Part shown: positions 19,583 through 50,451 of the stretch, piece after piece
How positions within the stretch are numbered: the stretch's first letter is position 1
Layout: each line of letters opens with the position of its first letter
From: Sycon ciliatum
Lineage: Eukaryota; Porifera; Calcarea; Leucosolenida; Sycettidae
Reading direction: 5' to 3'
DNA: 64,000 bases
NCBI RefSeq assembly: GCF_964019385.1
Contig: NC_088646.1
Span: forward strand, 15,872,823 to 15,936,822
Notes under the pieces: generated by a model
What the model was told of the DNA's origin: nothing
Seen by the model: only the letters and a program-made list of their open reading frames with translations
Databases searched by the model: none
Program-made: the position numbers and the translations under genes

Positions 19583-19930
19583 CGGACAGTCTCCTAGTAG
19601 AGTATTTTTCGTTCAAAACAGTGCTTGAGCTTTGCATGCTGTTTCACCTGAATTATTATTTTCCAAGCAACGATGCAGTTTGTTTGATTTTGACTTTCAC
19701 AAGTAAAGTTAGTTTCGTTTGTTACCTGATTCCTGATAGCATCAAGGCAGTATTCATGTAGAACTTCGCCGTCGCCGTTATAATTATAGTGTTTGTCAAT
19801 GTGACGGAGCTTGTCATTGAGTGTTGATATCCGAATCGGCATACGAGCAGGCTACCCACATTATCATCATTTTCTTGTTTTGCTTATTGAATACGTTGCC
19901 TGATTGATTACCCCGCTACATCCTCTGGCC

Positions 19931-21021
19931 ATGTCAGAATATCGCGCAAAGTATAAGCGCCTCAAGGCGAAGCTCAAATACTTGGTTTATGTACGTACAT
20001 ACTCCTGTCTCTGTTGGCCTTGAATGAATTGGGCACCCATCGTGGAACGTTATATTTTCAATCTGATTTATTAGGAACAAGAATGTTTTGTGGAGGAAAT
20101 GAGAAAAACTCAGCGGAAACTGGTGCGAGTATCAAGAGATAAAAGGTAAGTGGCCGGAATTGGGATACACCGTACAAACATGTAATTTATGCGCTAGTAT
20201 TGTTTTGTTTAATAGGTATTTTGTTTTCACATGTACAACATTGTACATCCATATTACACCACAAGGGAAGCTGGCTGTAGTACTGTAAAACACACCACAA
20301 ATTAACAGTGTCAATACACAGTGTAGACTCAGTAATATGCATACAAACAATTACAGTAGGGGATATCAGTTATCCAAGCACCATGGGAACAAGGGGACTC
20401 CAAACCACTCACACATGCGACCACATTTCATGCAACATCTATTGGTGGTGGCGCGCTTTAGCTGTGCACTTAGATTGGACGTTTGGCCTGCCACCTGTAC
20501 ATGCATTGGCATGTGTAGCGCAGCTATTGTGTTTGCTTTGTGCGTGTGGTAGACGTGCGACACACTGCTGTGCTGAGATATCTGTTGACGATGTGTTGTG
20601 AAGAAGAGTGTGGAAAGTAGGGGTGGATGTGGGCCTGAAAGCAGTGGAGCTGTGCTTCAATAACTACAGAATTAGCCCTGTAGATATTTCTTCATTTTGG
20701 AGATGCAACGCCGAGGGGATGGAATGTACTAGTAGTAGTACGGTAGTCGGTACCATAGCAGGTAATTTTACTAAAGCAAAGGTGGATAGCTGCTGCATGC
20801 TTACCAGGGTGCTTATTGTTCAGTACTAGTATTGGTTATGAAAGTGTGAGGGCTTGTGATCAAGTCTGGGTGTGCTTAATATAAACGCACGCTGACTTGA
20901 CGATGAATCAATACAATTGCTGTGTATCTTTATTTGTGTCTGGACCTATCTGCATGTGCAGCTTTCTGCTTGATCGCTTGATAAAGTACGAGACTGTACC
21001 ACCATCTTCCTCTGGTAAGGC

Positions 21022-21084
<63 letters not shown>

Positions 21085-21537
21085 TGTGTGTACGTGTGTG
21101 TGTATGTGTACGTGTGTGTGTTGTGTGCGTGCGTGCGCACGCATTTGGTTGGGAAGCAGTGGAGCTTATCAGTTTCAGAACAGCAAGAATAAGACGAGTA
21201 CTCATGCTCTGAGGATATTCTTCTGTTGCTGACTGCTTAGCTGTGTTGTTATTGAGTGGCTTTGGGAGAAGCTCACCTGGTCGGCTGACTGGAAATGAAG
21301 AACATTTTTGGTAATCCCTCATTATGTTTCATTCTGGCACATTCAGATGACGAAGCAACGGCTTCTTCCTCGTCAGATGATGAGCTTCATGAAATGAAGG
21401 TGAGATACTACTGCAGCATTGTAACTCACAGGTCATATGTAGGCATGCAAGTAACAGAATATAGGCACCACTTTTGCAATACAGTGTACTAGTAGTAGCT
21501 GAAGCAATGATGGGTAGTGGTGTTAATGGTGTTAATA

Positions 21538-21573
<36 letters not shown>

Positions 21574-22069
21574 TTGTGGATGATGCAGTACTAGTTTTGA
21601 CAATGAGTTGCAAGGCACAGTACAGGTATCATGATTCATGGCTGTAACTTATAGGCCATGCTGGCAAACTGCTGCTGTCAGTGGTGCTGTCAGTGGTGCT
21701 GTCAGTGGAAGACACGAGAGCATAGTAACTACATGTACGTAATGTACAATTAGGCTGGCAACTACTTCGTAGTGTCCTCTTCAGTGATGGCGAGGGAAAT
21801 TGCTGATATGACACCTGGACAGAAATGGCCCTCGGTTTGTGCCCTTACTCTGAGTGTTGATGGTGGATAAACACATCTAATCCGAGTCAATGATGTTGCT
21901 GAGTGTGGTTGGTATAATCCGAGTCAATGATGTTGCTGAGTGTGGTTGGTATAATCCGAGTCAATGATGTTGCTGAGTGTGGTTGGTATAATCCGAGTCA
22001 ATGATGTTGCTGAGTGTGGTTGGGTCCCAGAGGCGCACATGCGCTGGTAGGAATGCAATGCAAGAACCG

Positions 22070-22168
<99 letters not shown>

Positions 22169-25100
22169 ACATGTGAGTCTGTCTGTCTGTCTGTCTATGT
22201 CTATCTGTGATAATTATGGTTATTGTTTTCTAACTTCAAGTCCTTTCCACTCTTTCTGATTTTCTTTTGCCATGGCATGGATTTTGGTAATATCCTGGAC
22301 AGCTTACCCACCCGAAAGCAAAGTAAGTGTATTCCTGGCCAATGCTCCTGGCCAATGCTAGCAGATACCCAGACTTCATTTTCTGTACTGCTGTGTGCAT
22401 GCACTGTATGCACTTCTTGCAGCTGGTGTCACTCATGCGCACGCGCGTGTGTGTGCGTGTGTGTGTGTGCTTGTGCGAGTGTACGTGCGCATGTCATATG
22501 ACTACGGACATGTCCATGTCATGGAACTTGAAGTTGGGGACTAATCAGGCCAAGCTTTGTTTTGACTAGTGCGACTACGTACATATGATGTGTGTACTGT
22601 ATGCCTGAATACCTGCATTAGTCATCTGTGAGCACGGGCATAACACCATTGCGGATCACGCGGAGTTGCATGTCTGTGCATGACCCAGACCAGGTTAAGC
22701 TGTCTGTCTTTTTGGCTCTTTGGCTGGCTGTGTGTACTATATTATTATGGTATCTGTTTGTCTCCCCGTGTACCTGTTTTGGTTGTACCATTCTCACATA
22801 GTCCCCAGCTGTGGGGTAGGCCAGCGTGTTTAAGGCTAGATTCCTGGTATGCATCATGATCTGTTTCATTTGGGCATTGTTCTCAGTGGTTGTACTAGCA
22901 GTTAGAGACACATCAAGGAGTGCACAGCTCATTCACATGCAGTATTCTGTATTGTGTACTTTCCCTTGTGACTGGCAGTACTTGGTGTGTACTTGTGTGT
23001 GTGTGCGTGCGGGCGTGGATGCGCGTCTGTGTGCGTGTGGTGTGTGGTACATGGTGTATGTGTGTGTTTTCTAGGAAACGTTCCAATGACGACCCAGTTG
23101 GTGCTCCATCAGCAAAGATGGCTGCACTAGGAGGCGGAGAGGTTGCATATTCCGACGGAGGTCTGCATGGGTATGTGCCATATATTGCAGCATACTGAGT
23201 AGTACATGTGCCAATATTTATACACCTGTCAGTTGTGCTCAAGGAAACCCAGCCTTCTGAACATTTACTTGTAGTGCCCTGCACCAGTGCACAGCCCAGT
23301 GTTTGCAGGTCTGCAGCTTCCCAGCACATTGCACCAGTGCACAGCCCAGTGTTTGCTGATCTACATGTAGGGCTACACAGCACCCGGCGCTAACTGAATA
23401 TCACGAGGCTGGATTTCATTGTGCAGCACAGTGCACTGTACAGGTATTGTACTACTGGTGTTCTATAGCGCTAGGTAAAATCCCACCTAAAGTGCAGCAC
23501 TGGCGCCCTAGGCTAGGTCTTCAGCGACTCTTGTTACATCACTGCTTTTGTGTATGTGTACGTGCATCAGCATTCGCACCACTTGCAGGGCATGAAGGGC
23601 CGTGCAAGTCCGGGGTGCTAAATATGCACTTTGGATCGGATTTCACCACGCACACATCTATACTGTGGCCACACTTGCACTGTTCATGTATACTGGTATG
23701 TAGTGTTCACTGCTGCCACTGCAACAGGAATGCTTTACTTCTGTTTGATTTAAAAAAATTTAGTTGTTAGATGCCAGCACTAGTACAATGGCAATACGTG
23801 CTGTTTGTTCTTTGTGTTCTCTGTTAGCAGTTCTGAAGAGAAAATGTATGCGTCGCCGTTAAAAGCACCGATATCCAGCATGAACTCCACTATACACGAC
23901 GGTATCCCATCCTCTCGGTATGTGTAGACTTGTTAAAATCGTTATTGTCATGGTGGAATGTGACCAATGAAACATTTGTTGTTGCTGCTGCTGCTAGCAT
24001 TGTGATTGTCATCACTATTGTACAGTGCTGGCAACTGAAATCCGACCCCTGAGCGGTGCATTCACATTCTAGCGGTCTCTATTTCGTAGTTTACTATCCC
24101 GTGTTGGGTCTTTGCGATGTGAGCGCACCGCTCAGGGGTGGGCTTTCAGTTGCCAGTACTGTAGTTCAAGCATATTGTTTTGTCTCTGTGACACCTTGAT
24201 GCGATACGATTGTATGTTTTGTGTTCACTCTTATCCTCGTTGCATTGCTTTGGTTGAGGCTGTTGCTGCTGTTGCTGCTGCTGCTGCAAGTGATGCAGTG
24301 ATGATGATGGTGTTGATCATGTCGATGCTGCTCTTGACTTTGCTGCTGCTACTGCTGCTACTCCTGCTACTGTTGCACAGTGTGAAGAAGATGTCCATGT
24401 CTGAGGTACCGGAGTCTAGTCATCACCGCACTATTGAGCACGAAACTGCAATTCTATCACCCACAGAGGTGCGCAGATCAAGTTCAACCACCTCTGCAGC
24501 CATTGCAGCAGCAATAGCACCACCGCCAGCAGCAGCACCCATCGCACCCATTGAACGGACTGCATCGACCAGCTCCAGTGAGAGTTCATCTTCGTCCGGT
24601 TCTAGCACCAGCAGTGAATCATATTCACCTCCTCCGCCGCCACTGCCTATGGATGAAGACTCGAGCAGCATTGCACAATCTCATCAGGCCTCTCATCATC
24701 AACAACAGCATCAGCTTCATCATCACCATCCTGCTTCTGCTGCTGCTGCTGTGGCTGCTGCCAGAGCAACTGGTCATGAACATCCTGCTGATGCAGTTAC
24801 GCACAGCTCTAAGACCATCTCTGCTACCACCAATCGCTTTCCTCCCGTAGCAACGGCTGTTCTGCCTGCTGAGCGGTTTTCGTCTACGTCCAGTGTTGGC
24901 GCCACATCGGCTGCTTTACCAACTACCACGCGTGTACAATTACCGTCTCATCCAGTGTCATCTTTGGGTGGACAACACCGTCCCGCTGTATCCAAGAAGA
25001 CGTTTCATGTCGGTGCCCATCCACCAGCAAAACAGGTTAGCTCGGTAGTTGTACTTTCACTTGTTGATGTTGCTGGTGTATGTGGCTATGGTATCTGTGT

Positions 25101-28100
25101 ATGTGTGGACTTTCATCGGGAGCTCCAGTACATGTAGTAGTATCACTGATCAGGTGTAAATTGGAAAGTACTTTGTGTATCATGCAACTGGACCTGTCTC
25201 TTGGGGGGGGTTGAATTCATTGTGGGTGTGCGTGCGCACGCGCGTGTGTGTGTGGGTGGGTGGGTGTGTTTGTGGGTATGTGCAACTGGACCTGTCTCTT
25301 CGGGGGTTGAATTCATTGTGGGTGTGCGTGCGCACGCCACGGCTGTTCCGAGTGCGACATTTATCAATATGGCGGCGTACCGTAGCAACCCGCATCGCAA
25401 CAGCTCGCGTACGCACAGCGTGCCGACGCGTGCAGTCTTTCTGCACATTTTTCAAATTTATCGAAGAAAGTTTTTGTTTTTGGGGCGATGGCTTCGTGCC
25501 TTGGAGAGGTCGTATGAGGCCATGCTGGAAGAGAATACGTCTACCAAGACCTGGAAGCCTCCCTTCGGCGAAGTACTGAAGTTAGTATGTCCTGGAATCA
25601 ATACAGGAATTGTTTTCAAGACGATGCAGTGTAATAAATTCTAGTAATGTAGTGCATCATGGAATTAGTTGTGTTTGAAACTTCGGAACAAGAAGGGAGC
25701 ACGTTTGCTTGACTCACTACCATCATGACGTGAACAGATGGAACCCCACTGCTCTTATTCTAGAACATGTTGTCCCCTGAGGACAGCTTACAGCCAGATT
25801 TCCGTGCATAAGAAAAGAGCACAAATAAATCGTTAGACATAGCAATTCATCTTGGAGAAGGAGAAGGATAGAATTCGATCGTCTGCTACTCTCTCAACGC
25901 AAAGTTGATGACATAGCAGCTACATGTACGTCTCTTCATGCGTGTGCTCTTCACCTTGGGGATCAATGTGAGGATTTTAGGATTGCTGGAAATCAGATTC
26001 TGTATACTATTGGACAGCAGTTTCTGCATTGCACATGCTCCACAGTGCTCATCGGCAAGGATGTTGAATTTGCGTGTAACTCTTCACCACCCTGCTCTCC
26101 ATACTATTCCAGATCAGCACTAACTGAACATTGAAGTGTTTCATTTCCAGTAGAATGTGCTCCTCCAATAAGTGCGGCATTGGAGGCAGTGATATTTATT
26201 GCCACAGTTGCACTGCTGATATTCATCATGAAAGAAGCAATGGATGATGGTCAAGTCAACCAGTGGGCTTGCAGTGATAAGCAAAGTACCACAACACATC
26301 ATCAAGTGTCATAGCATGGCGGAGTTGGTTGCCCGCAACGCTTCCATGTTGGTGTTGTTAGTGTACAAATAGAGGATATCTTCCAGTCTCTAACTTTTAA
26401 AGCACATGGACCTGCTATAGGTGTTATTCTATCAATGCTTGTTTCAAGTCACAGAATTATTTAGCTTCTTACAGCTTTGATTTAATTCTCTGTATCGTAA
26501 TTAATGTGAAGAAGAGGTTGATGCGACTTCGGCGATACTTGGGGAATTGTGTGTTGCTCCATACGTGGGAGCTTGCGCTCTTCCTGCCGACTTGAATTCT
26601 CACTTGACCGACTTGTTATTTTAAAATGAATTCATGGACATCTGTCAATTCAGCAGGTGAACTGCATTGCCATTGAGCCTTGAGCCAGCTCCATAGGAAT
26701 GGCACGGTCATGAAGATGCGTGATGCTGTGTATCTTATTCGCATCAGAATAATAACCTGGTTGTTTCGGCTACACACTCCGGTAGCAACAGATACTCTGC
26801 ATAATGCAGCTTGTACAGTAGTCCTCACTAAAGAAGAAAGCAGTTTAGGAGGGACTCTAGTGAGGAGTGTACGAGGATAGCCTATTAGTGTTCTACATAA
26901 TCATTTGCATATTGAACATGTTACATGTAATTATCATGAACGCCGAGAGTGGTAAAACCGGGTACGGTACCAGCGGCTGCGGCCCTGTCCTGAGTGCCAT
27001 GCTGTGCTTAGTGCTGATGGAGTGCAAGATATAATTATAAGCTGCATCACGGTTGCCGTTTGTTGTTGTTCAATTACTTGGGAGTATTTCAGTATGGTCT
27101 TTACGCATGCATTTACGCATGCAAGTGTGTGCTTTTCAGCAGGATCGTCGAAAGACTACATTGTGCGTGGCCTAAATCTGCAGTAACACTAGTAATACAA
27201 AAAACCCATGCCTGTGTGTCTACACGTAAGGCCTCAGACAGATGGGGAATCTTGCATCTCTAACATTCAAAATCTCTACACAATGTCCTGTTTCTACATA
27301 CATTTCGAAAGCATGAATTTCAAAAAATGTTGATTGGATGCATGTCTGATTTGTACTTGCTGACATCCAGAACGAAGCATGCACGGATCCCTCCTATGGC
27401 GGACGAAACCGGGGTCTTCGTTAGACATGAGGCAGGAGAACACACCTCCACTCGTCCTGCGTATATCAGCAAACACTTGCAATTGACGTCCAAGTACGCC
27501 ACGCAAATCGACTTGGGCACGAAAACGATAATCTGGGCGGCAATGAAAATATAACTACGACGTAGGAAAAGGACAAACCTTTCAATGAAAATTGGCGTGA
27601 AGGCTGCCAAAAATTCTGCACCCCTTAGGAGGAAGCCTCGAATGTGAGCCAATTCTGATAAACGCCAATGGCCGGCACGACGAGGAAGAACGAAACGAAA
27701 AAGATCGTAACTTCACTTTCCCATTGCGCATTTTGACGATCAAAATATCTGCTTGCGCAGCTTGAAGGCAGGAAGGTGAATTCGCTCAGACTTCGCGAAT
27801 CCAGCGTAGAAAACGGCTGGAATCGACAGAAACATAGGCGAAACCTTGCCGAATATTTCCAGAGATTTGAAAAAGGCAGCAAGGTCGCGTACGACAGCAT
27901 CATGGATCACTGGGGCGACGGGAAAATGTCGTACCGTACATAATGTCGCTGGATTATGCATGCATAACAGCCGTGACGCGCGTGTGTGTGTGGGTGGGTG
28001 TGTGTGTTTGTGGGTATGTGCAACTGGACCTGTCTCTTCGGGGGTTTCATTGTGGGTGTGCGTGCGCACGCGCGTGTGTGTGCGTGCGCACGTGCGTCTG

Positions 28101-31100
28101 TGTGTGTGTGTTTGTGGGTATGTGCAACTGTGTGTACATGTATGTGTTTGTTCAGTCAAGTGCACCGTCCAGTTCGGCTGTGTCCGGTTCAGGTGCTGGT
28201 GCATCTGCTAGTGCACCCAGTGCTGGTGCATCACAGTGCAAGTATATGCTTGATGAGGTAAGAGGCCATCCGGCATTATGGATGATTTTCATGAAACGAA
28301 AAAAAATTGGTATTAACCTCCCCCGCCCACCCACACCCCTGAACGAAAAATATATTGTCTGGACAGATTCGATTTATAATATATCGGCTATCAATATTTT
28401 CTCAAAATGAAACTCTCCTCGACCTACCCGCCCGAAAACGGAACTTTTTCATTTCTTGTACAACCCGGGTGAGGGTCCTGTGGTTTGGTAATGCCCAACT
28501 AGTATGGCCCAAGAGATGCTAGCAAACCCTTGTGCTCAGGCTGACGTGCACTAACTTTCTTAGAACTAGCCTATTATATTATTAAAGGGGAAGTTAAGGC
28601 AAAAATTAAAATTTCACCAGTTGTAGTCTTCGGGGTGCTGAGTCGAATGGTCTTGGTCCGAGGAAGCTGAGACGCTCCCTTCCTACTTGAATCCCAATCG
28701 AACTCGCGCACTTCCACCGAAACTGGGTGACTGCGCCCTACTAGATGGGGATTTGTATGCAAAATGTCACTAAAAGCGCCATTTCGTTCTTATAAAAGCA
28801 CGGATGCCCGCGATTGGCCCATATGTTGTAGTCTTTTGGACGCTGAGTCGACTGGTTTTGGTCCGAAAAGGCTGCGATGCAGCGTTCCTCCTTTATTCCC
28901 AATCGAACATGGTTGAACAAGTGGTCACGTGCTCCTGGGTGCCCAAATCACCTGGTCACCACGCCAGCAGGTGACAACTTTCACACCAAGGTTCAACTCG
29001 AGTTCAACTCGAGTGACAGGACTGCACCCAAAAAAGGTCAAACAGGCTAGTAAGTTGTACCCTGCAGGCACGGTGACCAGGTGACTGGCGTACGCAGGAG
29101 CACGTGACCGCTTGTTCAACCATGTTCGATTGGGAATAAAGGCGGAACGCTGCATCGCAGCCTTTTCGGACCAAAACCAGTCGACTCAGCGTCCAAAAGA
29201 CTACAACATATGGGCCAATCGCGGTCATCCGTGCTTTTATAAGAACGAAATGGCGCTTTTAGTGACATTTTGCATACAAATCCCCATCTCGTAGGGCGCA
29301 GTCACCCAGTTTCGGTGGAAGTGCGCGAGTTCGATTGGGATTCAAGTAGGAAGGGAGCGTCTCAGCTTCCTCGGACCACGACCATTCGACTCAGCACCCC
29401 GAAGACTACAACTGGTGAAATTTTAATTTTTGCCTTAACTTCCCCTTTAAGCACGTTGCCTCAACGCTGACCAAGCATTTTTACATACTTTCTATGCCCA
29501 ATTGAATTGCTGGAGAAACCAGCCTGCGTGAGATATGCAAGCTTTGTCGAGTGAGTGCTATTCAATCAGAGAGGAATTGAATTGTATTGAGACCATAGTA
29601 GATAGCCCAGCGATTTATACGCCTGTTTCATGTCCCTGGTGAATATAATCCGATTAACTGCTGAGAATGAAATGTCCCACAGGCGTACTGTGGGAGTATG
29701 TAACAGACATGTATTTCCATTAGCATATCAATGTCTGAATATGTGGATGTGTTGTTCTGTGTTGCCTTCCAGACTCGCCAATGCACGGAGTCTGTGAATA
29801 TGAAGTCCAAGTCTCCGTTCTGCACACACCATCGTAGCATCATTAGGAAGAAAGGTGGGAAACCGTTATCATTTTCTTAAAAGCACCAACCGTGCGGGTG
29901 GAGAATAATTTGTGCACGGACGAAAACAGTGAATTGCAGGCCTTGATGTCAGCACAGGCGCTTGTCTTTTTGGCTGATGCTAAAGAAGGACGCCTTGGGA
30001 ACCCCTCTGACTGCACAAGAGTGTTGGACAAAAGTGTTCATGCCGATGCGTGTGTCTATTGCACCCTTCCGTATCTGTGTCAGTCAGTGCATGTGCAAAT
30101 TGCAAATCCGGCATGTTCTCCACTGATTCAAATGTTTTGACGGTACCTTGAGGGCAGCAGTGTCGCGGACCGTTCTTATGCAAAGGCACTGCACTGTTCA
30201 GCAGGATAATATTATTATATTGGTAATGAGACGCGCAAAATATGAGTATGTCCTGCGTTTGTGGTTTCTGATTGGCTGAAAGCAGGATAATCATAACTAG
30301 CACTCTTGATGCAACCTACAACTCGACCCAAAGGCTGACCTTTTTTTTCTTCTTCTTTTTTACCTGACTTCTATCTCAATAATCTGGTGTTCAAGTTTAG
30401 TTGTAATTTTGGTGATGTTCTGTTTTTTTTTTGCAGGTCAAGCCCAGCAAGCTTACAATGCCAATGCCGCAAGAAAACTGCCACGCGTAAGTCATTGACT
30501 GTGTGCCGCTTTGTTCAGTCAAATTGTTTCTTTCTTAGAACCGACACACGCCGCATGTCTTCGTGGTATGTGGATGGTTTGTGACGGTACAATCTTATGT
30601 TTATGGCTGTTACTGGTGTTGTGTTTTTCTTGCTGTGTAGGCGGAGTCCAGTACAGCTGTGGCCCACGGCCACATTCCCGCTTCGTTTGCTGCACACTCG
30701 GTGTAAGTATTTTGTGGCCGCTTTTTTTCCGGCCTTCGAATTAACGGATTCGACCAAGCAAACTTCACGGTCTCAAAATCCAGTTGAAATGAGGCCATTC
30801 GCTGAATTAAACAATTTCTTAGTAATTATTTCTGAAACTCGGATGTTGAACCAATAATAAATGTAGAAAGGAAAAGGAAATATAGACGTGTCAGGACGTC
30901 GAATGTCTCAGTACTCTGTCAGTTTTGTGCCTAGTTGTTGCACTTTCTGACTGTATATAGTATCTGGTTAAAGTGATGGAGAGTTACTCTCAACTCGTAT
31001 CTATATTTCCTTTTCCTTTCTACAATTATTTCTGAGTAATTCTTATAAGAAGAAAGAGGACCAAAGAGCTACAAGTTACGCTATAATATCCACTAACACC

Positions 31101-33906
31101 ACCAGTTACTTTACAATCAGCTCATGCGATAGCATTGCACGGCACTGACAAACGGTACTGGCGTTCTACACCTAACTGGCAATCAGCTCTAGCACGTCTT
31201 GGATGCGCACTCCAACAGCCTTCCAGCTTGGAAGGTTCTAAGTTATAGAAATAACATAAGGAGGGGAAGGTGAGCGCAACCAAGACGAGCACGAGCTGAA
31301 AATCTCAGCTGTGAAGGACGTTCAGCTGTGAAGGACGTTTGCGGATGTACCGTAAAGTCCGGAGCAAACGCCCACTTCGCAGCAAACGCCCACCCCAGCG
31401 GGTCCATACTATTTTCGTCTTTTTCAGGTCAATTTAGTTGTAAACAACTGGCATGAAGGTCGAATGCGTACGAGAACGACTGTAATGCCTACAAACTGCC
31501 TATGTCCTACCAAGAGGCTGTGCAAAAGCGATTGTCATTATCTTCCTGCAAAGAAATAACTTCTGTCGAGATTTCCTTTCATTCAATAAAGGTGGTAGTT
31601 TGTTCTCCATGTGGTACGAGTAATGCCGCATAAATTTGTGCAGTGCCACAATGTCGCACTGTCAGGAACAATAATTGTTCTGATGAAGCGTCAGTCAACG
31701 GCTTGACTGGTCCCAATATTGCAGTTGCAAGTCGAAAAGGGTATGTAACAGAAGCTACACCTACATGTACAACGTCGCTGCTAACTTGTTGAAAACTCCG
31801 AGGTGCCCAAGAAAAACATTTGCCTTTGGGGCTGTGTGATCTCGAAATGATGGCTTGAAACACCGTCAGAAGTGTATTTGGTTCCTTCAATACTCGGTAC
31901 CTTGTTATTCGGAAGAAAACCCGTTCGGATTTGCGAAATAAAACAACCATCATATAAAATCACTACGAGCTAGCTAGCTCGTGGATAGCGCTAGTGCACA
32001 AAGAGATTTTGAAACCAGGAAAGTGGACATAGTTTACCGTAGCAAAGTGCTCTTCCCGCTACGGTGTGAGATGCACTTTCGTACAGTAGGGGTGACAGTG
32101 CATGGGGTCAGTGTGTACAGGCCAGCAGATCTTGCAAAAATGGGGTGGGCGTTTGCTCCGGACTTTACGGTACATGTATACCGAGGACGATGCTGGCAAG
32201 ACCATCAGACAAAACAGTCAAATCACGATTCAAGGACGCATAGCAATACAACACAACTTGTGTGGCTCTAAAGATTCGAAGATAGATTAGTTGTTAGGTG
32301 TAGAACGTCAGTACCGTTGGTCAGTGTCGTGCAATGCTATCGCATGAGCTGATTGTAAAGTAACTGGTGGTGTTAGTGGATATTATAGTGTAACCCGTAG
32401 TTCCTTGGTCCTCTTTCTTCTTATAAATTAATCCCTGGCTCTTCACCCGAGTCTAGTAATTCTTGGTATTTCTTACCCTGACTTATTGCTAACTCCAGCT
32501 TCCTTTGGCGTATTTTCGTGATCTTGGAAAGCTCTGTATAGGAGCAACACTCCCAGCTACAATTCAACACCAAGCATGCCATGAATCCAGCGGTATAGCC
32601 CAGCAAAATCGCCCCAGTGCTTGAGTCACAGCGAGAAACAAGATTCAACAGCCATTTCTCTCTCTCTTTCAGTCTTTGCTCACATCGAGCTCGAATATTT
32701 TGTAAGGAGTCCTGCAAGTCCATGCTCTCTTGAATTACAGTCCATTCATAAAAAGATTGGCTCTGGCGAGCTCCTGTATTTGGCGATTTTCGTGATTTTA
32801 TCGTACACAGTGCAGTGCTGCAAAATTTGAAATTTGAAAAGGGTCGAAAAAGGGTACTTGAACTGGGGTTCGAACCACACAGTGCACTGGTGCAGGCGGA
32901 GTCAAACGGCCTGGATTTTGATGGCTTTTCCCAATTCAGGGCTTTTGGGGCAAAACCTGGCCGAAATCCTATTCTTGTTAGGGCTTGCTTTTTGGAGAAA
33001 TAGACGTCAGAAACATAATTGGAAGAGGATTCCATAGGGGATTGCAGAAAAATTCTTAAAAAACTCAAAGTTTGACCCATTTATGGCCAAAAGCTAGAAG
33101 TCCATCTTTTTTATGCATGGGCTGTGGTGTCTCTATGGCAACAGTCAGCTGCAAAGGGAACCTCGGTCTTCAAGACACAGCTCGTACACTCAAATTGCAA
33201 ATGAGCAGATTGTGAGCGCTGTAGGCGTTGCAGCCGTTCATTGTATCACTTCGGTGATTGTTTCTACAGATCGCCTGGAGTTTTCTCTTCAACCTACAAT
33301 GTAGATGTTTTAAGATGTTACGAGTGTGGCCAAGAACTGACTGAGTTAACACGATAGAAAACATTGAGCGCTGGTGCTCAATCTTTAAATGTGAGACCGT
33401 GAATGGGGTTAATACTAGGGCGCGTTTGGTTGGTACGACCTAGAACAGGATTCACCAGAACAGCACGTTTGGTTGGAACTGCACCTGTTCTGGGTCGGCC
33501 AGAACTTGCTCCGGCCTCGAGGCCGGAGCAGACCGAGCAGTTTCACTTTTCACAGTGAAACCTGGCGGGAACATCAATTTTGGTCCCAAATGATCACGTG
33601 TATACGCTTTTGGGTTGGACTCGCCGTACCGTACAAAGTGACCATGGTGACCCATACACATTTTGAAGAATGCACCACGTTTGGCACATTTTTCACAAAA
33701 ATGTGCTCAGTTTCTGGAGTACCGTTTAGTTGGCATGAGGCTGCTCCATGTGCACCAGCTGTTCGATCTTGTTCTAGATCGTAAACGCACCCCTAGCCTT
33801 CTTTTTTTCAGTAGTTGCTTTAAAAACATGTGACTGTTGTGTTTGTGTTCCATATAGGTCATATCCTGGGTCTGGCTTGCCTTCTGGTTCACATGGTTCT
33901 CATTGA
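19931..33906 (+). CDS. INO80E: INO80E-like subunit fused to a C3Hc3H zinc finger
   Basis: There are thirteen coding exons: 19931-19990, 20075-20145, 20962-21014, 21347-21399, 22303-22322, 23075-23170, 23831-23917, 24381-25035, 28156-28257, 29773-29854, 30437-30486, 30641-30702 and 33858-33906. All borders are AG/GT and all phases agree: 1440 nt, 479 aa. Residues 1-62 (MSEYRAKYKRLKAKLKYL, YEQECFVEEMRKTQRKL, FLLDRLIKYE) are the conserved INO80E N-terminal coiled coil. Then comes an acidic Ser patch (ATASSSSDDE, as in vertebrate INO80E) and a basic KAKKRSNDD. A 218-codon exon of low-complexity Ser/Ala/His/Pro follows. Residues 393-419 form C-x9-C-x12-C-x2-H (CKYMLDETRQC...FCTHH), the zinc-finger pattern of INO80D/KANSL2. 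The protein ends SGLPSGSHGSH. Nuclear chromatin-remodelling role follows from family knowledge. Vertebrate INO80E, as I know it, lacks this finger. Confidence 0.88.
21023..21140. repeat. GT microsatellite in INO80E intron 3
   Basis: An almost pure GT tract begins 9 bp after the donor at 21015 and degrades into GTACGTGTGT units. GT tracts beside donors can bind TIA/CELF-type factors, but nothing here proves it. Confidence 0.85.
21538..21570. repeat. CTG/TGC trinucleotide tract
   Basis: About ten GCTGCTGCTG units lie inside INO80E intron 4 (21400-22302). Related TGC-rich tracts occur at 15350-15363 and 24270-24290. Confidence 0.85.
21878..22021. repeat. 38-bp tandem repeat, nearly four units
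   Basis: The unit TAATCCGAGTCAATGATGTT plus GCTGAGTGTGGTTGGTA repeats at 38-bp spacing with almost no divergence, implying recent expansion. The array is followed by a pure GT tract (22073-22166) and TCTG repeats (22178-22194), all in INO80E intron 4. Confidence 0.85.
22073..22166. repeat. GT microsatellite
   Basis: About 47 uninterrupted GT units lie in INO80E intron 4, about 140 bp upstream of the 20-nt microexon. Confidence 0.95.
22303..22322 (+). other. INO80E: 20-nt microexon of the INO80E-like gene
   Basis: CTTACCCACCCGAAAGCAAA is bordered by CAG and GTAAGT. Without it, exon 4 joined to exon 6 meets a TGA at once. With it the frame yields LTHPKAKKRSNDD, which aligns with the basic stretch that follows the acidic patch in vertebrate INO80E. 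It is too short for ordinary ORF detection. Confidence 0.8.
24023..24161. mobile_element. 139-bp TA-flanked MITE
   Basis: The ends CAGTGCTGGCAACTGAAATC and (reverse complement) CAGTACTGGCAACTGAAAGC form TIRs of about 37 bp that include CCCTGAGCGGTGC. TA flanks both ends. It lies in INO80E intron 7. Confidence 0.7.
25186..25337. repeat. Minisatellite in INO80E intron 8, left part
   Basis: The unit of about 95 bp contains CAACTGGACCTGTCTCTTCG, GGGTGTGCGTGCGCACGCGC and a GT/GGGT tract. There are two units here, one more at 28019-28080 and a partial at 28115-28130. The array is split by the TIR element at 25338-27975. Confidence 0.75.
25338..27975. mobile_element. Unassigned 2.6-kb TIR DNA transposon in INO80E intron 8
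   Basis: The left end CACGGCTGTTCCGAGTGCGA and the reverse complement of the right end (CACGGCTGTTATGCATGCAT...AGCGACATTA) share a 10-bp terminal match and an inner GCGACATTA match. The flanks are ACGC on both sides. Joining the flanks across one ACGC recreates the intact minisatellite unit seen at 25227-25260, so the insertion limits are firm. Plus-strand coding traces: a possible first exon MAAYRSNPHRNSSRTH...WKPPFGEVLK with a GTTAGT-like donor at 25579; a Cys-rich open stretch at about 25865-26110; and a hydrophobic segment (SAALEAVIFIATVALLIFI) after an AG at 26151. No known transposase motif is recognised. A 4-bp duplication with CAC ends recalls Chapaev-type elements. Confidence 0.6.
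27976..28140. repeat. Minisatellite in INO80E intron 8, right part
   Basis: It continues the array interrupted at 25337: GCGCGTGTGTGTGTGGGTGG, the CAACTGGACCTGTCTCTTCG unit and a shortened GT-rich unit. It ends 15 bp before the exon 9 acceptor. Confidence 0.7.
28237..29830 (+). other. Exon pair encoding the C3Hc3H-type zinc finger
   Basis: The first Cys (residue 393) is at the end of exon 9. The other ligands (403, 416, 419) are in exon 10. An intron of 1515 bp, filled mostly by a foldback element (28586-29446), splits the finger. The C-x12-C-x2-H half has the same spacing I recall for INO80D. The joined phase is zero on both sides. Confidence 0.7.
28586..29446. mobile_element. TTAA-flanked foldback element, copy 2
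   Basis: This copy has intact TTAA on both sides (28582-28585, 29447-29450). Its 861 bp form two long arms, as in copies 1 and 3. A 10-bp duplication (GTTCAACTCG) near the centre distinguishes it. It fills most of the intron between the two zinc-finger exons of the INO80E-like gene. Confidence 0.8.
30862..31024. mobile_element. 160-bp MITE with A/G-rich inverted ends
   Basis: TGTAGAAAGGAAAAGGAAAT at the left is the exact complement of the right end (ATTTCCTTTTCCTTTCTACA). Non-coding, in INO80E intron 12, directly before the larger TIR element at 31043. Confidence 0.7.
31043..32426. mobile_element. 1.4-kb TIR element with about 130-bp ends, containing a second TIR element
   Basis: The left arm (31043-31174) starts TTATAAGAAGAAAGAGGACC and runs through ATCAGCTCATGCGATAGCAT. 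The right arm (32293-32426) is its complement with about 10% divergence. The centre is interrupted by a separate element at 31350-32170. No transposase is recognised. It lies in INO80E intron 12. Confidence 0.7.
31350..32170. mobile_element. Inner TA-flanked TIR element
   Basis: The ends CCGTAAAGTCCGGAGCAAAC are inverted at both termini and flanked by TA (31348-31349, 32171-32172). A 124-codon minus-strand frame (31953-31579, starting MMVVLFRKSERVFF) is the only sizeable ORF and is unassigned. It is inserted in the element at 31043-32426 and is therefore younger. Confidence 0.65.
32421..32720 (-). CDS. Possible small single-pass membrane protein, antisense in INO80E intron 12
   Basis: A 99-codon frame starts MDLQDSLQNIRARCEQRLKE. 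It has a charged amphipathic helix, one hydrophobic segment (ILLGYTAGFMACLVLNCSW, about residues 38-56) and a second charged helix ending ELLDSGEEPGINL. The helix-membrane-helix order looks protein-like. The upstream frame stays open to 33080 (start MGQTLSFLRIF), but that part is unconvincing. The last codons and the stop fall in the edge of the TIR element at 31043-32426, so the natural C-terminus may have been cut off by that insertion. I do not recognise a family, and a chance ORF cannot be excluded. Confidence 0.3.
   Translation of the reverse strand, partial: DLQDSLQNIRARCEQRLKEREKWLLNLVSRCDSSTGAILLGYTAGFMACLVLNCSWECCSYTELSKITKIRQRKLELAISQGKKYQELLDSGEEPGINL
33415..33796. mobile_element. 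380-bp MITE with CTAGGG...GCGTTT ends
   Basis: The left CTAGGGCGCGTTTGGTTGGT and the reverse complement of the right CTAGGGGTGCGTTTACGATC are inverted. An inner CTAGAACAGGAT/CTAGAACAAGAT pair is also inverted. The ends look hAT-like. It is in INO80E intron 12, 60 bp before the last exon. Confidence 0.55.
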
Positions 33907-33984
33907 CCTGGAAAGAAATCCAGAGAACTAGTCGAAACAAGCTGTCGTATGTGACTCTGTAGGGTGGTTCTGCTGTTCAGCAAG

Positions 33985-34182
<198 letters not shown>

Positions 34183-34207
34183 AAATTGTCCTGAACCCAG
34201 TCCATGT

Positions 34208-34330
34208 GTTCTTCTTCTTCTTCTTCTTCTTCTTCTTCTTCTTCTTCTTCTTCTTCTTCTTCTTCTTCTTCTTCTTCTTCTTCTTCTTCTTCTTCTTCTT
34301 CTTCTTCTTCTTCTTCTTCTTCTTCTTCTT

Positions 34331-34361
<31 letters not shown>
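34208..34361. repeat. TTC microsatellite
   Basis: About 51 uninterrupted TTC units separated from the CT tract by 27 bp. The purine strand (GAA) could adopt triplex structures, as GAA tracts do elsewhere. Confidence 0.97.
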
Positions 34362-34800
34362 AGTATGCTACTGATGGGATGCCTGAAGATTGTATTTTTG
34401 CTAGCATCTCTTTGTACATATTGGGTGTGAATGTGTAAGTGTTAGCTAGTTCATCGCACTGCACCGCTCCTATTCTGTATTATAGTGCAAAGTACATTTT
34501 ATTCGATATTCTACTTTATTCACATTGCACACTTCCTGTGATCTTCCAGTTTCTGCAGCCCCTCTGTGCTGCTGTACATAATGTTCCTGTCTGCTATATA
34601 TATCACTGCCACCACCATATTTGCTCTGTACCCATATATAGCGCTGTGTACATTGTGTTCTAGTGCAGTACAATGTCATGCAGTTATGTCCAGTGTAGGT
34701 CTACCCGCTTAAATTTGTTTTGTGCTGCTGGTTTGCTGGTCTTTTGGTCTCCGGCACCACGGTGAATGTAAAGTTAATTAGAAACTTCCAGTGTTTATGT
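34362..34800. other. Unannotated stretch
   Basis: AT-rich sequence with many stops in all frames. I see no coding or repeat signal apart from TACATGTA-type words. Confidence 0.5.
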
Positions 34801-34802
34801 AT

Positions 34803-35320
34803 AGAATATAAGTTGAGTCCCGAGTGTTTAGGCCACACGTTTTTATTTCTGTGTTTCTCGTCACCTGAAAATCTAAAAATCTAAAAACGTATGCGAGAGG
34901 TGGAAAAAATAATAAAAAATGACAGAAAAATAAAAAAAAGTTTATTAGACCTTTGTTCACACTAAAATCCACCAGTACACCATGCAAAATAGCATCCATA
35001 GTTAGCAATTAGTATGTGGCAGGAGCTTCTGTCACAATCTGTGCATGTGCAGCTAGATTGCGCACAAAAAAATGCCGTTCTTGCATCATGTGTCGCGCGG
35101 GCCAGGCCACATTATGTACATGTGCATGAGTGTGCTGGTCCCCACATGCACAGTCAGTGCAGCACAGTTTTTTTCTTCCAGACTCCTGAAACGTATGCGC
35201 ACGGGTGACGAGAAACATAGAAATAGAAACGTGTGGCCTTTAATACGGGAAATAAAAAACCGAGGCGAAACCGAGGGTTTTTTTCCCGTAAACACGAGGG
35301 CGAAGCTTATATTCTATCTA
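34803..35320. repeat. Large imperfect inverted repeat
   Basis: The left arm (AGAATATAAG...GGCCACACGTTTTTATTTCT...TTTCTCGTCACC) recurs inverted at 35200-35320. The right arm holds an extra 45-bp GGTTTCGCCTCGG segment missing on the left. Likely a foldback element. Confidence 0.6.
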
Positions 35321-35325
35321 AATTA

Positions 35326-35490
35326 TAGCATAAAAAAACCTCCAGTCAATTTCCTAAAAAGAGGGTTTTTACAGCACCAGGTTTTTTTATACAGGTTATT
35401 TACAGCACCAGGTTTTTTATATGAGTGATAACCAGAAAATATTACCTCCTTTTTAGAACACGCAAATGACTGGAGGTTTTTATACTATAA
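35326..35490. repeat. Inverted repeat with internal ACAGCACCAGGTTTTTT duplication
   Basis: The ends ATAAAAAAACCTCCAGTCA and their complement near 35465-35487 are inverted. Two direct copies of ACAGCACCAGGTTTTTT lie inside. It is adjacent to the inverted repeat at 34803. Confidence 0.55.
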
Positions 35491-35803
35491 TTTAAGTACT
35501 TGTACATGTATGGGGTGCACCCCTGGTCGATGTAGGAAAAGCCTCTGGTCGATTGGTTACGGTAACGGTCTGTAGATAAGTATGTACTTACCAGGGAGTT
35601 TGTAAGGGCGAAGTACCTCAGTACGAAAATGAATTTTCCCAACTCTGAGGCTTTATAAATACAACAAAGTGCATACATGTCAGTATTACCTAACGAATAT
35701 CATTTCTGAAGTCTATGCATGGGTATCATAGACGGAGAAGAACAGAGAAAACAAAACCGCTTCTTCCGTACGAAACGACGTTTTATTTTCTATGTTCCAA
35801 CTA

Positions 35804-36569
35804 CAGTCAACTTCGCCAATAACGACATTCGGCGGGGCATCAGAAAAGTGTCCTTATTCGCGAAGTCCCATTTGAATGTATGTGAACCCATATTTTGTAT
35901 AGTATGACATGCATATCAAAATCAAGCTCTTTTCTTGCTCTACATGTATGTCAATGTGTACTTTATTTTCATATTGCAGTTGAAAGGAACTAAAAATTCA
36001 ATATGCAAGGGAAATCAATTGAAAAGTATGCCTTTTTGAGCCATCTACAGGGCCAGAGACATGTACATGTATGATGATTACTGTACTATCTTGTACAACT
36101 ACATGTACATTGTATGTACATATACATGTACATGTAGGTGTGCTGGTAAATCCAACAATTTTGAAGCCAACATAAAAAGGAAGAAAAAGCCCCCCCCCCC
36201 TTGGCTGCATTTTCTTGCATGTGTGCCTTTATATCCATCACCATAGGTTCTGGTACTACTGCATGCCTTAGTAAAAAAAAAAAAAAAAAAAAAAAAAAAT
36301 GACAGGTACATGTACATGTACATGATTGTACTTGACTGACAGGTACTTGAAATAGCTGTCAAAAGTCCAGAACGTCGTTATTCAAGCAGTGAATATGACC
36401 TCGGGGCACTAAAAGCATGTCGCTATACGCGAATTGTCGTTATTCAGATAGTCGTTATATCCGAAGTAAAATGTGTACAGTTAGATGGGACTTTGCTCTG
36501 GGCATGGAAATTCGGTCGTTATCCGCGAATTGTCGTTATATCCGCAGTCGTTATTAGCGAAGTTGACTG
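35804..36569. mobile_element. pogo/Tigger-like MITE, copy 1
   Basis: The ends CAGTCAACTTCGCCAATAAC and (reverse complement) CAGTCAACTTCGCTAATAAC are flanked by TA. Inner sub-terminal words GTCGTTAT...CGAATTGTCGTTAT repeat several times, as in pogo-type ends. The interior includes a C tract, an A(26) tract and palindromic TACATGTACATGTA words. A second copy is at 58183-58341. Confidence 0.65.
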
Positions 36570-44320: not shown

Positions 44321-44661
44321 GTTGATAAATATGGTGGTAAAGACACACCTGGCAATATGGCGGTATGAAGACATCCAAGAAGAAGATTGCCTGATGAGTC
44401 CAGCGGGGACGAAACGTACGTCGCAATCGAGCTATGTCGTTGCTGTGTCATCATCTATGTGCCATGCGCTACTTGATGTACCAGCCTGCTATGCCGGATA
44501 CTGCCAGCCATGCATCGACCAGGCGCCAGGCGCGAACTGATGGTGGTGGTGGTGAGAAGGAGAGCTCTGTGCCAGAACTTTGCAGCCAAGAGAGCGTGTG
44601 TGGGCAGGCGTGTGTTTACCGCCATATTGCCGGGTGTGTCTTTACCACCATATTTATCAAC
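44321..44661. repeat. 341-bp hairpin with 44-bp arms (43/44 identical)
   Basis: The left arm (GTTGATAAATATGGTGGTAA...GGCAATATGGCGGT, 44321-44364) and right arm (44618-44661) differ at one base. Just outside, ACATTCTCAGTA occurs directly repeated at 44272-44283 and 44660-44671. The 253-bp centre holds a run of GATGGTGGTGGTGG and no known frame. Very low divergence suggests a recent element. Confidence 0.75.
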
Positions 44662-47924: not shown

Positions 47925-48049
47925 TTAAAGCGGTGTGGACCCTGGCTAGCGCCAGACGTTACTTTTGTAGCGTCTGGTGCCAGCCGCTACTAAAGTAACG
48001 TCTTTTGCATAGCGTCGGGAATTAACACTGTGTAGCACACACTATATCA

Positions 48050-50451
48050 AACTCAAATGGATGCAGACTTGTAGAATTTTGCGAGGACAACCGGCTGGTG
48101 CTAACCAACACACTGTTCAAGCACAGGATGCAACATCGCTCAACATGGTTTTCTGATGGTTTAGTGCATGCGGATGGAAAGCCTGTGCGGAATATGATAG
48201 ATTACGTGATAGTAAAACGTTCCACCATGGCCGCGGTTCTAGATGCAAGATCGTTTGGAGGCTTCACCACGCGCTCTGATCATCACCCTGTTATTGCAGT
48301 TCTTGGCATCGCACTTTCTAAAGTCCATCCGACCGTCAAACAACAAGACCCATGTTTCAATCGCTATAACCGTCCAACCGCTGAATCGTCGAAACTGTTC
48401 TGCGACCGTCTCAAGGAGAAGTTACCTTCTCTGCTTCCACTCTCCGCAAACATCGACAATGACTCCGTGGATAAGGCGTGGCGTGGATTCGTCTGGGCTA
48501 CGCATGATGCAGCGCAGGATGCATTCGGGAAAGTGCCCACTGGTTCTGCTCCGAAAGCAAGCACGAACCCTCGCGTTGCATCCTTATCCACTGAACAGAA
48601 GAATCTGCACTGCCGCATAAACGCTGAACCTGATCCAGAGCATCGTAAAGCTTTAAAGATTGAAAGATCTGCAAAACTCCACGAGATTCGAAGGATACTA
48701 CAGAAGGAGGGCGAGCAATATTGGCAACGTAAGGCTGTTGAAGTAGATGCTTTACGTCCTGACCCACGGTCCTACTTCAACGCCATCAGCAACTTACGCC
48801 AACTACGCTCTGGGAAGAAGGCTGCGCCTGTGCGTCTTGCTGACGCAGACGGCAGAATCATGGCAGACATCTCATGGAATCTTAATGCCTTTAATGAATA
48901 TTATGAATCGGTATTTTACACTGATGGCCAGCCACTCGACCTCAGGCAGCAATCAAATGAGGAAGATCCATTCACAATCGAAGAAGTACGGTCTGCAATT
49001 ATCAAGCAGAAGTCTGGTGGTGCTGTCGGTCATGATGGTATCAGTGCTGATGCTTTGAAGTCAGCTAAAAACCTTCTCGCACCCTGGCTGACGAATTTCT
49101 TCAACGCTGTTCAAGCTACAGAGTACTGTCCTGACGACATGCGCTGCGGCCTCATCGTTCCCATCTACAAAGCCGGCAAGCCTCTAGGACATCCAAAAAG
49201 CTACCGCCCCGTTATGCTCCTTTCTGTCGTCCGTAAGATCTTGACGTCAATACTCACCCGACGACACACACTCCATGTGCAGTCATATGTGGCAGAGAGC
49301 CAAGCTGGTTTCCGCCCTGGCAGATCGACCACGGATGGTGTCTTTTACGCCAGGACGATGTGTGAGCGCGCACTACTTGGCGACTGGTCATATTCATCGG
49401 CACTATTGGACTTCAGCGGTGCGTTTGACACTGTCATTCGTCAGGTTGCTCTGGAGAGGTTAGCCACTGCTGGCGCACCAACGTCCACCACTGCAGTCCT
49501 AGTATCAAACACAACAGCCCGCACGAAGCTTGGTAAACAACTAAGCAAACCATTTCCAACGAACATCGGCGTCGTCCAGGGTGACCCAATGTCACCAATA
49601 ATGTTTATAACTTACGCCGAAGGTTCCATGCGTAAGATCCGAGAGCAAGCTCTACCCGCGTCAGACCTACCAGCAACTTTCACACAATACGCAGACGACA
49701 CCACTGCCCATCAGAACGAGCGATCATCTGTGGAAGAAACCGTCCGTGTGTGTGAACCCGTTTTCTCGGATGACAATCTGAAGCTGAACGTGGCAAAAAC
49801 TCAATATTTTACTGTGACCAAGGAAGATGATTCCTGGAAATCGGTGAAGCTGCTGGGGAGTATGCTAGGCACAGCAGAAGACATAGCAGCCAGAGTGTCT
49901 GCTGCAAATCGGGCATTTGCAAGCATTCCATGGAAACGCCACAACCTGAATTCCAGGCTGTGTATGTTTTCCTGCCTGATATTGCCTGTCTTACTGTATA
50001 ACTGTGCGCTTTGGACCTTATCGCAAACATTAACCGACGTCGTCAATGTATGGCACCGGAAGAAACTACGTACCATCATTGGTATCACGTACCCACAACG
50101 AATCTCGAACACAGCGCTGTATGCCAGAACCGAGCAGACCCCACTATCCCAAGTCTGCAGGCAACGGAGACTGCTGTGGTTCGGCCATGTAGTGAGGGAA
50201 GGCGAAGAATCGTCCTCTTTCCAAGCCCTCCTAATGTCAATCAACACAACAGACATACGACGACCCCGAGGACGACCCCGTCTGAGATGGATCGACGTTG
50301 TCAAGAAAGACTTACAATGCATTAATCTGTCGCTTCTGGATGCTGTGCAATCTGCTTCTGATAGAGCTGCTTGGCTCGAAATTGTTAACAGATGCGTTGA
50401 CCTCATGCAATGAGTGAAATGCGAACTGTCATTATTATTATTATTATTATT
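48050..50451 (+). mobile_element. RTE-like non-LTR retrotransposon, 5'-truncated, with open ORF
   Basis: A single open frame of 771 codons (48098-50413) extends upstream without a stop to about 48050 (NGCRLVEFCEDNRLVLTNTL). The domains in order are: the C-terminal half of an AP endonuclease (NMIDYVIVKR, TRSDHHPVI); RT (GGAVGHDGISADALK, KAGKPLGHPKSYRPVMLL, SQAGFRPGRSTTDGVFYAR, SSALLDFSGAFDTV, GVVQGDPMSPIMF, QYADDTTAHQ); and an RLLWFGHVVR...RPRGRPRLRWIDVVKKDL tail. That tail and the ATT-repeat 3' end (50431-50451) are typical of the RTE clade. The endonuclease N-terminus is missing, so this copy cannot be autonomous. The open frame implies recent insertion. Confidence 0.9.

Follow-up and report, generated by a model that had tools for sequence, protein, structure and literature searches.

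INO80E would be held in the INO80 complex by its coiled coil, and it belongs to the N-module of that complex. The N-module is described as evolutionarily divergent and DNA binding and as regulating activation by extranucleosomal DNA (PMC9733932). Vertebrate INO80E proteins consist of the coiled coil covered by Pfam model PF24237, followed by an Asp/Ser-rich stretch, and many of them end in an acidic LVIDIPE-type tail. The INO80E gene of the calcareous sponge Sycon ciliatum (LOC135814677), located in a 64,000-nucleotide window of contig NC_088646.1 (assembly GCF_964019385.1, positions 15,872,823 to 15,936,822, forward strand), encodes a protein that shares the coiled coil and the Asp/Ser-rich stretch but ends in a CCCH (three Cys, one His) finger that none of the retrieved vertebrate proteins has. 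We consider it very probable that this is the ancestral animal form of INO80E, whose finger was lost on the way to Bilateria. The analysis shows the gene model, the presence of both domains, and a finger that is homologous in the sponge, a placozoan, and cnidarians but missing from the retrieved proteins of bilaterians; by parsimony, the finger would have been present in the common ancestor of sponge, placozoan, and cnidarians and lost before or early in Bilateria.

We rebuilt the gene from the sequence as 13 exons on the + strand (19931..33906 of the window; Table 1), with a coding sequence of 1,443 nucleotides including the stop codon (1,440 coding), which yields 480 amino acids. All 12 introns have GT...AG ends and their phases are consistent; in exon 12, an end at 30702 (donor TCGGT/GTAAGT) closes the frame, and an end at 30700 would give 1,441 nucleotides and no stop. 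A protein search recovered an independent annotation, NCBI isoform X2 of LOC135814677 (479 amino acids), which is identical to the rebuilt model letter for letter once the start of exon 7 is moved from 23828 to 23831; these are the two sites, 3 nucleotides apart, of a tandem acceptor (TTAGCAG). The first-pass annotation had proposed one phase-consistent 13-exon gene with 1,440 coding nucleotides, and the rebuilt exons agree with it, as does isoform X2 apart from the exon 7 acceptor. It could still be objected that the model joins two adjacent genes, given that intron 8 (3.1 kb) separates the linker exon from the finger exons and that the model is derived from the genomic sequence and the NCBI annotated protein. 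We rejected such an artefact as highly improbable, because the NCBI protein has identical junctions, those of exons 8, 9, and 10 included; in addition, cnidarian and placozoan records hold the same two-domain protein. An alternative terminal exon encoding an acidic tail was sought by regular expression, and the motif was absent from all three forward reading frames across the window, as was a looser form of the ending from those of 19901-36000.

At its N terminus, the Sycon protein is an INO80E, as proposed in the first-pass annotation: residues 3 to 50 match PF24237, a model spanning just 48 residues, at 74.3 bits (curated cutoff, 27.8; E value, 9.2e-21). At the C terminus, where a CCCH finger had likewise been proposed, residues 394 to 420 hold C394, C404, C417, and H420 in the layout C-x9-C-x12-C-x2-H; apart from the three Cys of the finger, C24 is the only cysteine of the protein. 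A hidden Markov model (HMM) of the fingers of 37 other INO80E proteins gave 29.9 bits to the whole Sycon protein in its NCBI form (best of 1,000 shuffles, 9.0) and 35.3 bits to a 45-residue finger piece (best of 5,000 shuffles, 12.7). The Sycon finger is not a product of chance, and the protein belongs with the finger-bearing INO80E proteins of non-bilaterians, which carry, C-terminal to the coiled coil, a C-x(8-10)-C-x12-C-x2-H finger that is homologous with the cnidarian one. The residues after the last ligands are also alike in Sycon (FCTHHRSIIRKKGQ), Trichoplax (YCKRHRTVIRIGPK), and Acropora (YCSAHRSVIRISKQ). Sequence searches of the PDB gave no match up to an E value of 1 for the Sycon N-terminal piece, chance-level rows only for the Sycon finger (best E value, 0.78), and no match for a 17-finger profile; NCBIfam had no match for the three proteins scanned, and Foldseek returned for the whole Nematostella model a single meaningless row (E value, 8.8).

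A separate observation concerns the coiled coil (19931-21014), which is also matched, below cutoff, by the INO80F (TFPT) model PF24245. Such matches were found for Sycon and for 5 of the 10 relatives scanned (P0043, P0041, and P0042 among several animals), with a best E value of 0.001, hinting that INO80 subunits E and F may be paralogues.

To describe the distribution of the finger, we pooled 243 INO80E proteins from three homolog searches: one with 23 matches among 48 candidates, a second from which the best 120 of 715 matches were taken, and a protostome-centered third, likewise represented by its best 120 of 863 matches, in which the scored candidates were those sharing most words. The proteins were scanned with a pattern, which also allowed Cys as the last ligand, and with the finger HMM (E < 1e-3). 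Among these matches, the HMM found the finger in 38 of the 243 proteins and the pattern in 39, the additional one being a low-complexity Cys run in a fish protein (P0023) without an HMM match. Twelve of the 38 carriers have a species name, namely one sponge (Sycon ciliatum), one placozoan (Trichoplax adhaerens), and ten cnidarians (Hydra vulgaris, Hydractinia symbiolongicarpus, Dendronephthya gigantea, Acropora palmata, Nematostella vectensis, Actinia tenebrosa, Montipora capricornis, Oculina patagonica, Xenia sp., and Pocillopora damicornis); the other 26 are without one. In contrast, none of the 113 proteins that were new in the protostome-centered search has the finger. Those with names come from molluscs, annelids, nemerteans, a brachiopod, chelicerates (including a sea spider), and a myriapod; in seven of the 113, three or four Cys follow the core without forming such a finger. 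The finger is likewise missing from the vertebrates, amphioxus, hemichordate, two echinoderms, and one nematode retrieved, which for vertebrates bears out what the first-pass annotation had stated. The observation it had named as refuting its own reading, a finger in most invertebrate INO80E proteins, does not hold literally, since the 113 protostome-search proteins lack it; cnidarians and the placozoan do carry it. The 205 finger-less proteins include at least two that, judged by name or resemblance, fall outside Bilateria: the Xenia isoform P0112, in which the finger stretch is missing, and P0051, a 150-residue fragment resembling hydrozoan proteins. The bilaterian loss refers to proteins among the matches listed and the sponge side to one species; these matches included no record under the name of a demosponge, glass sponge, ctenophore, or unicellular relative. 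A different C-terminal motif, MTREELERHLE, is shared by a protein of the gastropod Babylonia (P0106) and four unnamed ones (P0108, P0102, P0003, and P0004) and did not occur in the proteins of cnidarians or vertebrates that were compared.

The homology of the fingers was examined in alignments made with MAFFT. With both FFT-NS-2 and E-INS-i, the four Sycon ligands align with those of all 11 anthozoan and placozoan proteins, and those of three hydrozoan-type proteins are in register with FFT-NS-2 (3/3) but not with E-INS-i (0/3). With --auto and L-INS-i, no ligand is in register with Sycon in any set, because the long linker leads these modes to misplace the Sycon finger; indeed, in joint full-length alignments the finger is misplaced, and deleting most of the linker restores the register. 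The exon frame provides a further comparison. The two Xenia isoforms (P0048 and P0112) differ by 29 missing residues, one replaced junction residue, and one upstream single-residue difference, which fits a skipped exon with phase-1 edges starting in codon -3 before the second Cys, as deduced from the protein sequences. In Sycon, a phase-0 intron immediately precedes codon -3, and the end of exon 10, in phase 1, falls two codons short of the Xenia edge. The finger thus sits in a nearly identical exon frame in sponge and coral, which points to common descent and bilaterian loss rather than to a sponge-lineage fusion. The annotated finger-less isoform of this soft coral is also an observation in its own right, since it suggests possible regulation of the finger by splicing.

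The first-pass annotation had explained the finger as a fusion of INO80E with INO80D, and this account does not survive the comparison: the finger is already present in cnidarian and placozoan INO80E, where an origin in the sponge lineage would call for its absence from other early-branching phyla. The carriers Trichoplax, Nematostella, Acropora, and Hydra, among others, largely refute a sponge-specific INO80D-INO80E fusion, and we regard a sponge-lineage fusion of INO80E with all or part of INO80D as very unlikely. What speaks for it is the similarity of the Sycon finger piece to the second half of zf-C3Hc3H (PF13891; 17.0 bits, profile positions 32 to 61 of 62) and of a putative INO80D half-domain to the finger profile (13.8 bits, with none of 5,000 shuffles as good; best, 12.4 to 13.1). 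The former, however, is below the curated cutoff of 27, and the INO80D domain is a double C3Hc3H finger, of which INO80E has one half.

The label "INO80D/KANSL2 type" stands as far as a CCCH finger is concerned and is weakly supported as to family. In the Pfam scan, the whole Sycon protein has no zf-C3Hc3H row, nor do the finger pieces of four of the five other carriers; two of the six pieces match at 14 to 17 bits. Against zf-primase (PF09329; cutoff, 28.8), the Sycon piece scores 17.8 bits and that of Nematostella 18.4, so that the curated cutoff is reached neither for this family nor for zf-C3Hc3H over its double finger. A distant kinship with INO80D is nonetheless possible, because of the 13.8 bits that the finger profile gives to its half-domain; a putative KANSL2 half scores 10.4 to 10.6 bits (0 to 1 of 5,000 shuffles as good). 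The putative INO80D piece, for which the PDB had no match by sequence, matches zf-C3Hc3H over positions 1 to 62 at 68.3 bits and zf-primase at 17.6 bits, and hence the two models do not separate the classes. These weak similarities, together with the layout C-x(8-10)-C-x(11-14)-C-x2-H common to all, would also suit an ancient capture, in which a stem-animal INO80E gained a duplicated zf-C3Hc3H half of INO80D or KANSL2 before the sponge split and Bilateria lost the finger. Such an event would be compatible with an ancestral finger and would add a source to it, but we find it rather unlikely: the sub-threshold zf-primase matches are equal or better, the INO80D piece itself is among them, the predicted folds of the Nematostella and Trichoplax proteins show a modest match to part of the MCM10 internal domain, and a stretch of about 40 residues is too short for its origin to be resolved.

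If the finger is ancestral, what might it do? The N-terminal coiled coil would dock INO80E on the complex, and the long, disordered-looking linker would tether the putatively zinc-binding finger and the basic residues after it, which could touch linker or nucleosomal DNA and thereby help the N-terminal module to sense or hold extranucleosomal DNA. We lean slightly toward such a DNA contact as the likeliest role, because residues 393 to 440 of the Sycon protein contain 9 K/R versus 3 D/E. Zinc motifs mediate protein contacts too, and the finger might instead be a protein-protein docking module, e.g., onto INO80D, NFRKB, or actin-related proteins; the Xenia isoform without it is what a modular docking site might show, whereas the basic composition and the modest match to a DNA-binding region of MCM10 favor nucleic acid, making docking the less probable of the two roles. 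It is a tentative speculation that INO80 of the earliest animals had a DNA-reading finger on INO80E, which Bilateria dropped, perhaps passing its task to INO80D or YY1. If true, sponge and cnidarian INO80E would record an older form of linker-DNA sensing by the N-terminal module. The finger offers a concrete handle on the original job of this little-known subunit and suggests that the usual model animals have INO80E in a reduced form. A contact between INO80D and INO80E, which the presumed fusion had seemed to reveal, does not follow from the finding.

No description of an INO80E finger was found in the literature searched, most subscription journals being outside its coverage. The same literature contained no papers for INO80E with cnidarians and, judged by title and the start of the abstract, none about the animal for INO80E with sponges; "INO80 complex subunit E" gave none on invertebrate INO80E by title, one of the papers comparing mosquito salivary with human proteins. 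The three "INO80E" matches in PMC9733932 are the yeast mutant ino80 E842A and not the subunit.

Table 1. Exons of the Sycon ciliatum INO80E gene and other elements in the window
Feature	Positions	Strand	Basis
Exon 1 (start codon; INO80E core)	19931..19990	+	Rebuilt model, PF24237
Exon 2 (INO80E core, EQECFVEEMRKTQRKL)	20075..20145	+	Rebuilt model, PF24237
Exon 3 (INO80E core end, FLLDRLIKYE)	20962..21014	+	Rebuilt model, PF24237
Exon 4 (acidic/Ser stretch)	21347..21399	+	Rebuilt model
Exon 5 (20-nucleotide microexon)	22303..22322	+	Rebuilt model; in NCBI protein too
Exon 6	23075..23170	+	Rebuilt model
Exon 7 (tandem acceptor; start 23831 gives 479-residue isoform X2)	23828..23917	+	Rebuilt model, NCBI comparison
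Exon 8 (low-complexity linker, Ser/Ala/His/Pro/Gln-rich)	24381..25035	+	Rebuilt model
Exon 9 (first putative zinc ligand at its end, CKYMLDE)	28156..28257	+	Rebuilt model, finger profile
Exon 10 (other three putative zinc ligands, TRQC...FCTHHRSIIRKK)	29773..29854	+	Rebuilt model, finger profile
Exon 11	30437..30486	+	Rebuilt model
Exon 12 (frame kept only with end at 30702)	30641..30702	+	Rebuilt model
Exon 13 (stop codon; without (D/E)LVID-type tail)	33858..33906	+	Rebuilt model
Two AATAAA sites, candidate poly(A) signals	34911..34934	+	Sequence only
Foldback element, intron 9	28582-29450		
Inverted repeats, intron 12	31043-32426		
Long (CT)n then (TTC)n tracts	34000-34360		
Type I hammerhead ribozyme	44385-44428	+	Rfam RF00163, 35.4 bits (gathering threshold, 34)
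795-residue stop-to-stop open reading frame	48026-50413	+	Reverse transcriptase PF00078

Several further elements lie in and around the gene. The foldback element of intron 9 has arms of 399 nucleotides that are 96% complementary and 71 nucleotides apart, and the 134-nucleotide inverted repeats of intron 12 (94%), 1,116 nucleotides apart, mark a candidate transposon; the pyrimidine-rich tracts shortly 3' of the stop codon fall in the probable 3' untranslated region. Farther downstream, the hammerhead ribozyme is the sole Rfam match in the window at the gathering threshold, and the reverse transcriptase reading frame, the only one of eight scanned with a Pfam match, is probably a non-long-terminal-repeat retrotransposon.

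Compared with known zinc fingers, that of INO80E resembles zinc finger 1 of MCM10 (zf-primase) in its CCCH layout and a C-x3-V-N/S motif after the second Cys, with a modest match in predicted fold. It differs in having 12 rather than 11 residues between the second and third Cys, with ligands assigned by pattern, and in scoring below the zf-primase cutoff; moreover, the MCM10 finger acts beside an OB-fold, with which it binds DNA jointly (PMC5333062). The second half of the putative INO80D domain sequence has a similar layout (C-x10-C-x12-C-x2-H), but PF13891 describes a double finger and INO80E carries one half. The closest counterparts are the INO80E proteins of Nematostella, Acropora, Hydra, and Trichoplax, in which a C-x(8-10)-C-x12-C-x2-H finger likewise comes after the PF24237 coiled coil. 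Most of these are listed at NCBI as "uncharacterized protein." They differ from the Sycon protein in that core and finger are some 60 to 100 residues apart in those examined, in contrast to about 340 in Sycon, and in having at the C terminus an acidic tail, LVID or a variant of it, which Sycon lacks.
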